A stretch of DNA of 24,664 nucleotides from a virus, in the IMG/VR virus record IMGVR_UViG_3300032286_000531, positions 1 to 24,664 of that record; one strand, written 5' to 3'. Of this stretch, positions 1,848 through 5,846 are shown piece by piece (within the stretch, counting starts at the first letter, position 1; each line of letters opens with the position of its first letter). The notes under the pieces were generated by a model. It saw only the letters and a list, made by a program, of their open reading frames with translations. It did not search any database and was not told the DNA's origin. A program made the position numbers and the translations under genes.

Positions 1848-1877
1848 AAAAAAATACCTGACCAAACCGGTCAGGTA
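1848..1877 (-). terminator. Strong intrinsic terminator
   Basis: Minus strand: perfect 9-bp stem TACCTGACC / GGTCAGGTA with loop GGTTT, followed by seven T. It ends transcription from the gene-poor gap to the right and insulates P3. Confidence 0.92.
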
Positions 1878-1946
1878 CTCTGCTGATTCACCGATTAACC
1901 TTTAATGACCCGTTAGGGTGTCGCCAGGTGTCGCTCACATCGGTGC
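1848..1946 (-). ncRNA. Candidate structured small RNA ending at the terminator
   Basis: No gene with good start signals covers this stretch. On the minus strand CACCGAT (1945-1939) can pair with ATCGGTG (1895-1889), enclosing a 10-bp-period direct repeat of GCGACACC (1934-1927 and 1924-1917) and a short ACCC-TAAC-GGGT hairpin. The strong terminator closes it. A promoter-like TTGCGC, 17 bp, TACAAT lies just upstream (1975-1947), with CTATAC...GTATAG dyad arms between the boxes. P4 upstream could also supply a longer form of about 280 nt. This is inference from sequence only; covariation or RNA data would be needed. Confidence 0.35.
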
Positions 1947-1958
1947 ATTGTACTATAC

Positions 1959-2084
1959 TCAGCTGTATAGCGCAAGAAGGCGACCAAATAATAAAGTATT
2001 TTTGGAGCAGAACCTTTGCTTGCATACTATGACCAACGTCTTGGGTTTAGATGGTTCATCCGCCGACAAACCACTATGCATCAT
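1959..2084 (-). CDS. Doubtful 41-aa reading frame in the P4 leader
   Basis: ATG ATG at 2084-2079, TGA at 1961-1959. Sequence MMHSGLSADEPSKPKTLVIV then a Cys/Arg-containing tail. The upstream GGCGGGAAC is only a poor Shine-Dalgarno. It is the only frame of any length on the P4 transcript in this gap and may be chance. Confidence 0.15.
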   Translation of the reverse strand: MMHSGLSADEPSKPKTLVIVCKQRFCSKNTLLFGRLLALYS

Positions 2085-2132
2085 TCCAAAGTTCCCGCCA
2101 GAAATACTCTCTTTATCAACTCAACAAATACC

Positions 2133-2160
2133 ATTATACAGGTTATCCTTCAAATGTCAA
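2133..2160 (-). promoter_or_regulatory. Promoter P4 (sigma-70 consensus) facing a gene-poor gap
   Basis: Minus strand: TTGACA (2160-2155), 16-bp spacer, TATAAT (2138-2133), then GGTATT. Upstream GCTTACGGAGGGC matches P2 and P3. The next well-supported gene in its direction starts 366 nt away, beyond a strong terminator, so its product is a short transcript from about 2126 to 1848. The gap 1768-2194 holds P3, P4, the terminator, the candidate RNA and one doubtful frame. Confidence 0.85.
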
Positions 2161-2836: not shown

Positions 2837-3002
2837 CGTGTTCCTTTATCCATTTTAGTGCCTGTCCTATGTCTTTATACTCTGGACTAACAGGTTTATT
2901 CTTTATTGTTGACCATTGGTATCTTAACCTCTCGGCAATATCCCACTTATTATTGTCTTTATCCCACTTGGCAGAGGTATGGTAGATTTTATTCAGTATC
3001 AT
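2802..3002 (-). CDS. Hypothetical protein, 66 aa
   Basis: The ATG overlaps the TGA of the LigA-related gene (ATGA). Sequence MILNKIYHTSAKWDKDNNKW, a basic middle (RLRYQWSTIKNKPVSPEYKD), then GQALKWIKEHDESKE. Looks like a small helical protein; no family recognised. Its 3' end overlaps the 43-aa basic gene. Confidence 0.6.
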   Translation of the reverse strand: MILNKIYHTSAKWDKDNNKWDIAERLRYQWSTIKNKPVSPEYKDIGQALKWIKEHDESKETNQKVI

Positions 3003-3295
3003 TTAATCTTATTCTTCTTGCGGTATTCAAGGAGTTCTAGGGCTTTCTTATAAGTCCAAGGATGTCTATGGTTTAGATGGTTACCGGTCGCACCAGTCCA
3101 GTCATAGAATTCGGCATCCATAAAACCAATCTTCATACATTCTGGATGCTTCTTCTGTAACTGTTCTAATTCATCTGCCCATCTCTGCCATTGGTCATCC
3201 GATATTATATTCTCATCTAGCATATAATAGAGGCAAGAATGGACTGCCATCTGTTTACGGCGTTGGAGTATAATCTCTTTGGGAGTTCTGGTCAT
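2999..3295 (-). CDS. DNA ligase LigA-related small protein
   Basis: 98 aa. Residues about 17-53 (VHSCLYYMLDENIISDDQWQ and the following WADELEQLQKKHPE) match the pattern of the N-terminal Ia domain of NAD-dependent DNA ligases, H..YY.LD...ISD..Y..L..EL..LE..HPE, which binds the NMN half of NAD. There is no adenylation Lys, OB-fold or BRCT domain, so it is not a ligase. Stand-alone proteins of this type recur in phages, role unknown; NAD or NMN binding is inference. Followed by GFMDAEFYDWTGATGNHL. It sits between an HNH nuclease and a 66-aa gene. Confidence 0.7.
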   Translation of the reverse strand: MTRTPKEIILQRRKQMAVHSCLYYMLDENIISDDQWQRWADELEQLQKKHPECMKIGFMDAEFYDWTGATGNHLNHRHPWTYKKALELLEYRKKNKIK

Positions 3296-4941: not shown

Positions 4942-5283
4942 TCACTCCTTGGATTTTAGGTAATTGTTGTAATCTCTCTGCATTTGGCCATAATGGTCAC
5001 CGCCAGCACAATGTTCTAGTTCATGCTCAAGAGCCGAGGTGTGATTCGGTAACACATAGATGGTACAGGTATTTTGGTTGAAATTATAGATGGCACATCC
5101 GAATGATACGGCACCTAGTAATTTAAACCATAATGGAATATATTTGTAACATTGTGATTGTAGTTCAAAGAAACCAACTTCATTAACAGTAATGTCCAGT
5201 TTTGGCATATTGGCTATTCTAGGTTGCATTGGATAGCAGGCAACTAACAATAACACCATTATAATACAAATTAGGCGTTTCAT
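4942..5283 (-). CDS. Lipoprotein with a metzincin-like HExxHxxGxxH motif
   Basis: 113 aa. Residues 1-16 form a lipoprotein signal (MKRLICIIMVLLLVAC), lipobox Cys16, so the mature protein should be anchored in the envelope. HELEHCAGGDH at 87-97 fits the long zinc motif HExxHxxGxxH of metzincin peptidases, although the protein is very short for that family. Further Cys residues (45, 63, 73) could form disulfides. A role in surface exclusion or envelope modification is inference. The start overlaps the previous gene (ATGA). Confidence 0.7.
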   Translation of the reverse strand: MKRLICIIMVLLLVACYPMQPRIANMPKLDITVNEVGFFELQSQCYKYIPLWFKLLGAVSFGCAIYNFNQNTCTIYVLPNHTSALEHELEHCAGGDHYGQMQRDYNNYLKSKE

Positions 5284-5846
5284 GCCAAATCCTTAATCAA
5301 TATAATCTTTTTGTTCTCACCAGTAGGCTTTACGAATAGTTCTTTCAACTGTTCACCTGTATTCCATTTCATACTAGATGACTTATGTTTAGGTAGACCG
5401 GCAGTCTCACCAATTCTCTTCCAATTATCGGCCAAATAGACTGCACCATTCTTACCAGCACCAACAAAGGTAATGATATGTTTCAAGTCATCGCCATACT
5501 TTTCTTTCCATGCCGATGGTGCCTTCTGCCTCAATTGTTTTAATATTTGAGTACCACCGTTCTTTATGGATTGTATCATACAAAACCGCCAATTGTTGGC
5601 AATAGTATTGAACAATGCCTTGTATTCTTGCTTGCTGACACCGAGATGGTTTAGTATATCTTTAGGTGGTGGGTAGACCGATGAGCCAAGACCAATCATA
5701 CCGACAAGCACATCATCATGGTAGATTAACCAATCAATACGGCGACCAACACTTGAATTGGTTGGCACATATGAATGGTAGTTTTCAATGATATGTTTTA
5801 CTTGTGATTTTTGTATTGGTGTGGTTACTTGTACCAGTTTAATCAT
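5280..5846 (-). CDS. Mom/DUF4338-like GNAT-related protein
   Basis: 188 aa. The pattern HSYVPTNSSVGRRIDWLIYH, then LVGMIGLGSSVYPPPKDIL, NNWRFCMI, TQILKQL, KYGDDLKHIITFVGAG and VYLADNWKRIGETAG follows the order I recall for DUF4338 and Mom-type proteins (GNAT-like fold). Phage Mu Mom modifies adenines to evade restriction. Whether this protein modifies DNA is inference, and no catalytic assignment is possible here. It overlaps the coiled-coil gene upstream by ATGA. Confidence 0.5.
   Translation of the reverse strand: MIKLVQVTTPIQKSQVKHIIENYHSYVPTNSSVGRRIDWLIYHDDVLVGMIGLGSSVYPPPKDILNHLGVSKQEYKALFNTIANNWRFCMIQSIKNGGTQILKQLRQKAPSAWKEKYGDDLKHIITFVGAGKNGAVYLADNWKRIGETAGLPKHKSSSMKWNTGEQLKELFVKPTGENKKIILIKDLA

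Follow-up and report, generated by a model that had tools for sequence, protein, structure and literature searches.

The minus strand of an uncultured phage genome fragment carries, between positions 2126 and 1848, what is probably a self-contained gene for a structured, probably trans-acting non-coding RNA (ncRNA) of ~279 nt. This reading draws on a promoter, a terminator, the apparent lack of a credible gene, relatives in other viral contigs and a covarying closing stem, all read from the sequence (Table 1). We regard the RNA as a candidate for a new family within a known kind, the phage-encoded ncRNAs. Few ncRNAs of lytic phages are known, most of them without a function; if real, the present one adds an uncatalogued family of structured RNA, clearly bounded, from an uncultured clade of T4-like phages. 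The original prediction of an RNA at this place was probably right, on partly different grounds and with a different stem.

The window, by which the whole stretch of DNA analysed is meant, comprises 24.7 kb from the genome of a virus of bacteria that is known only from environmental DNA and belongs to an uncultured clade of T4-like phages. The genes, the majority of which lie on the minus strand, include ribonucleotide reductase, PhoH and a primase; among named phages, the primase is closest to those of Synechococcus and Methylophilales phages (~42% identity). In addition, a 188-aa protein (5280-5846, minus strand) matches the Pfam family DruA (Druantia protein DruA, E 2.5e-10), and a 98-aa protein (2999-3295, minus strand) consists of the N-terminal NAD+-binding domain of DNA ligase only (Pfam Nlig-Ia, E 2e-28; PHROG 6466).

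Table 1. Positions of the predicted RNA and its elements in the window.
Feature	Position	Strand	Remarks
Promoter P4	2133..2160	-	TTGACA-16-TATAAT, 12/12, sigma-70-type
Conserved 5' leader TTGTTGAGTTGATAAAG	2111..2127	-	Directly after the -10 box; follows 77 distinct promoters in related contigs
Predicted non-coding RNA, ~279 nt	1848..2126	-	Gene apparently absent; fold; relatives L152/L187 at the corresponding locus
Closing stem, 5' arm	2087..2117	-	Pairs with 2018-1987; covaries with L152, L232
Conserved core block CCATCTAAA-N11-GGTCATAGTAT	2024..2054	-	Predicted hairpin; L152/L187 have the identical block at the same spacing, L232 a near-identical one
Closing stem, 3' arm	1987..2018	-	Pairs with 2117-2087; covaries with L152, L232
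Intrinsic terminator stem	1851..1881	-	Followed by seven-T run 1854-1848

Promoter, terminator and leader of the predicted RNA

The predicted RNA lies in a gap (1768-2194) between two minus-strand ORFs, a zinc-finger ORF at 2473-2195 and the following one at 1767-1588. A strong consensus promoter running into a strong terminator had been claimed here, and both were confirmed: P4 (2160-2133) matches the consensus at 12 of 12 positions, and the stem at 1881-1851 with its seven T (1854-1848) is the one terminator observed in the region, against 0.4 +/- 0.6 in shuffled sequence. An own promoter and an intrinsic terminator with a U tract, as expected of an autonomous bacterial-type small RNA (sRNA) gene, are present at 2160-1848. 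The predicted extent of 1848-2160 was essentially correct, the RNA running from about 2126 to 1848 with ends deduced from the positions of promoter and terminator. Hairpins closely resembling this terminator end ordinary genes in two related contigs (L162, L191). A second perfect promoter, P3 (1820-1793, minus strand), immediately follows the terminator; it drives the next gene (1767-1588) and is outside the predicted RNA.

Within its first 5 kb the window has four promoters that score 12/12, P4 among them. All four are minus-strand TTGACA-16-TATAAT sequences within 2 kb (265-238, 742-715, 1820-1793 and 2160-2133), three of them match TTGACATTT...TATAATGG, and the sequence preceding P3 and P4 is also repeated.

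The gap itself, claimed to be gene-poor, appears to be so, as 1768-2194 seems to hold no credible gene. No Pfam matches were obtained for its two minus-strand ORFs (45 and 41 aa) or for a plus-strand ORF of 123 aa (1918-2289), and tblastn with either minus-strand ORF, or with 43 aa of the plus-strand one, found no relatives. All ORFs tested in the gap were negative under a codon model trained on relatives; for ORFs so short this is weak evidence, because the neighbouring small ORFs 763-948 and 2524-2700 were negative too.

The predicted window transcript starts UUGUUGAGUUGAUAAAG right after the -10 box. In a scan of 2.9 million viral contigs, the leader after TATAAT was recovered in 96 stretches, and among the fetched loci, from related contigs (L127-L222), TGTTGAGTTGATAAAG follows the -10 box at 77 distinct sigma-70-type promoters. 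An ATG lies 4-14 nt downstream of the leader at most of these 77 promoters, and therefore UGUUGAGUUGAUAAAG is for the most part a very short 5' UTR ahead of protein genes in this clade. The leader in the window has no start codon with a usable frame close downstream. In bacterial genomes, the leader-plus-promoter pattern gave scattered, mostly non-promoter matches. In related contigs, this leader is likewise found ahead of a conserved non-coding stretch adjoining tRNA arrays (L161 at 4764, L197 on the minus strand, and L216). Furthermore, tRNA-array promoters in L130, L180, L211 and L222 run into a leader with GTTCTTTAACAATTTG, which we take to resemble the boxA of bacterial rRNA operons, and segments of 90-250 nt that long inverted repeats close off occur in several gaps of L124, L146, L181, L182 and L222, of which some are tRNA spacers. 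The conserved promoter-leader module could help in finding further phage RNAs and in asking about their effects on the host.

Relatives, fold and closing stem

A partly syntenic set of relatives was obtained via relatives of PhoH. In L152 and L187, which are identical at this place, the predicted RNA lies directly downstream of the same small zinc-finger gene as in the window, and the unit comprises a 12/12 promoter and the window's leader, then ~230 nt in which no gene is seen, and a terminator carrying seven T. The sequence common to the window and L152/L187 is GAGTATTTCnGnnGGGAAnTTTG, with one small gap, and CCATCTAAA-N11-GGTCATAGTAT, for which a match at fixed spacing between two sequences of this length has an estimated chance of ~1e-7. 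In L074 and L218, the zinc-finger gene is followed by a short hairpin and then by a promoter and an ordinary ORF; these loci being without the RNA, it is present or absent at this site like a cassette. A further relative, 84% identical to L152 over 123 nt, occurs in L232, where it occupies a gap between two genes in which no own promoter was found. No DNA relatives of the window, L152 or L232 RNA were detected among 50,697 phage records. Scans with the core pattern returned only L152, L187 and the contig of L232 as genuine, the remainder being unrelated and many of them reverse-strand coding coincidences (e.g. YYDRxxxTLDG).

The zinc-finger protein gave no relatives as a single query, and its alignment recovered 80 loci, with none in bacterial genomes. 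A strong antisense promoter (10-12 of 12) was located within 140 nt of the zinc-finger stop in 24 of 57 distinct downstream regions of relatives, compared with 100 of 1500 random windows; examples are L091 (18648, minus strand), L094 (13268, minus strand), L261, L274 and L282. A G-rich stretch, e.g. GGAGGGGTGGTTCGGGGCGGGG, recurs at many of these antisense starts. The window and L152 have no such antisense promoter downstream of the zinc-finger gene. An automatic fold-based ranking of orphan promoters was discarded for excess noise.

The minus-strand transcript folds better than shuffled sequence (z -3.06, 0 of 200), with an MFE of -88 kcal/mol for a 283-nt RNA (z about -3), and the L152 and L232 RNAs alone fold only mildly better than shuffles (z -1.3 to -2.2). 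In the alignment of L152 with L232, a closing helix of ~20 pairs is preserved in both, and nearly all of the seven two-sided pair changes across the whole predicted structure fall within it. In the window, a helix occupies the matching position (2117-2087 with 2018-1987). When the arms of the window, L152 and L232 were cut out and joined by an artificial spacer, in the register given by the folds, 19 pairs were obtained with 91.2% of cells paired and seven two-sided changes, a result reached by 3 of 500 shuffles and drawn from three independent sequences, two of them of one sub-type. Sliding the register of the three arm pairs lowered pairing to 45-55%. The best partner for the 5' arm of L152, L232 and L280 is in each case clearly the 3' arm of the same RNA. 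For the window's 5' arm, pairing within the RNA (-20.9 kcal/mol) is barely better than pairing with the 3' arm of L152 (-20.7 kcal/mol), the 5' arms of the two being nearly identical. Conserved structure with compensatory change is seen in the closing stem only, across the window, L152 and L232.

Covariation among related phages, which had been suggested as a check, is found in another helix than the one proposed. The 7-bp CACCGAT/ATCGGTG pairing originally put forward is expected about once or more by chance in such a region (estimate), differs from the conserved stem, and has no detected relative that could show compensating changes in it. Other details of the original prediction fared less well. 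The second promoter-like sequence (1975-1947) falls under the threshold of the promoter scanner, and a 6-bp dyad such as its CTATAC/GTATAG is likewise estimated to occur about once or more by chance in a region of this size. The 10-bp-period GCGACACC repeat has only two copies, at chance level, and a scan for the spaced pair gave unrelated matches only; as a family marker, it was rejected after 44 stretches were recovered, every one in an unrelated context. What stands of the claim that the layout denotes a regulatory RNA is the layout itself, together with a predicted gene-less terminated transcript kept in L152/L187 and a covarying stem; the dyad and the repeat find no support, and any regulatory role is putative.

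No known class was claimed to match, which agrees with searches of Rfam 15 (including 6S RNA, tmRNA, ribozymes and HEARO): the window contained no gathering-score match, 1760-2200 held nothing near threshold at a relaxed E-value, and the RNAs of L187, L232 and L280 gave no family. A hammerhead ribozyme was ruled out, with the CUGANGA core absent and no Rfam match. A covariance model (R1) built from L152 and L232 was run over 190 sources and 49 whole records; it did not recognise the window itself with confidence and found no further true copies apart from L280 (5053-5245, E 3e-4), a gene-less structural look-alike without clear sequence relation (z -4.3 to -5.4). In the gene-less L280 unit (5004-5380), a closing stem of 20 pairs encloses 131 nt; the promoter again scores 12/12, and a GGCGCC hairpin with a T run lies further downstream.

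Alternative explanations and proposed working

Because UGUUGAGUUGAUAAAG normally serves protein genes of these phages as a 5' UTR, the chief rival is a decayed protein gene, in which P4 and the leader once drove a small early gene whose frame was lost, leaving the promoter, the terminator and a functionless transcript. This is unlikely, though it has several points in its favour: the ATG that follows the leader at most of the 77 promoters, the promoter and ordinary ORF at this place in L074/L218, and a sense frame with PSKxxxxVIV common to the window, L152 and L232. In L152, however, that frame comprises only 14 codons between stops and has no start codon, and the L152 copy is likewise gene-less with the same blocks. 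No sense or antisense peptide gave an intact relative, and the two-sided changes in the closing stem also argue against decay. A somewhat less probable explanation is a cis-acting intercistronic element, with the closed stem serving mRNA processing (e.g. by RNase III) or control of a neighbouring gene and no free trans-acting RNA being made. The L232 copy would suit such a role, lying between two genes with its 3' arm abutting the next gene's ribosome-binding site, and in these phages such long closing stems are frequently seen between tRNA genes. Yet the window, L152/L187 and L280 each have their own 12/12 promoter, and in the window and L187 there is also an own terminator, with the next gene having its own promoter.

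An antisense origin, as a fragment of a plus-strand protein gene or a small transposable element with inverted ends, is very improbable. It is suggested by the motif TMTxxxxLDG common to the antisense frames of the window, L152 and L232, by the 123-aa plus-strand ORF and by the inverted ends of the element. In the antisense frame, however, two single-base gaps separate L152 and L232, a search of 50,697 phage records gave no relative of the L232 antisense peptide, and the antisense peptides hit nothing but one another's loci; the protein was rejected on these frame-breaking gaps and missing peptide relatives. The plus-strand ORF has neither a Pfam match nor a positive codon score. As for a transposon, the L152 and L232 arms differ with compensation around a conserved interior, the opposite of what transposon ends show. 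A bolder proposal, which we regard as quite doubtful, would unite the window, L152/L187, L232 and perhaps L280 in an unrecognised phage RNA class with a long covarying closing stem, a variable interior and a core three-way junction that is circularly permuted between the window and L152, and would have it counter host factors or defences by serving as a decoy or scaffold. The proposed junction strands are ACCAUCUAAA, GGUCAUAGUAU and AUAGUGGU, the last of which is on the 5' side in the window and on the 3' side in L152/L232. The permuted junction is weakly supported, because L232 breaks one of its three short (three-pair) helices (CUA to CAA).

For the preferred reading, a self-contained ncRNA gene, the following working is proposed. 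A host sigma-70-type RNA polymerase would start at P4 and halt at the terminator. The first ~140 nt would form a domain closed by the long imperfect helix, which would bury the 5' leader, and a 5' end so buried should slow decay of the RNA. The conserved hairpin would be displayed inside this closed domain. In the 3' part, an A/U-rich stretch would lead into the terminator hairpin and its U7 tail, and such an arrangement is the usual chaperone-binding 3' end of bacterial sRNAs (Hfq). Most likely the RNA would accumulate stably and act in trans. It might bind a host or phage factor by way of the closed 5' domain, or it might be a base-pairing sRNA of the Hfq type.

Comparison with known phage and bacterial RNAs

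The predicted RNA shares with Hfq-type trans-acting sRNAs an own promoter, a Rho-independent terminator and a U tail after an A/U-rich stretch, the Hfq features being read from the sequence. Unlike them, it has a large closed 5' domain that would sequester the 5' end, and its predicted duplexes with the window's phage mRNAs did not exceed shuffled controls, so that no own-mRNA target was found.

Among phage RNAs, RNAC and RNAD sit in the tRNA gene cluster of T4. Both are small ncRNAs whose function is unknown; they were seen by Northern blot and are classed as late (PMC9697503). By description, the window RNA resembles them as a small ncRNA of a T4-like lytic phage. In contrast to these late, tRNA-cluster RNAs, it is set among small early-type genes as a unit with a promoter and terminator of its own, and no tRNA gene was found within the 24.7-kb window. 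Two further phage RNAs offer a comparison: misc_4 of phiR1-37 (296 nt), listed as predicted trans-acting, and CfrI of cyanophage S-PM2 (~225 nt), which lies between genes and is an antisense RNA to psbA (PMC12197685). The window RNA differs from CfrI in that it gave no antisense partner or own-mRNA target above controls. With both misc_4 and CfrI, compared by description, it has in common a similar length and the setting of phages studied in lytic infection.
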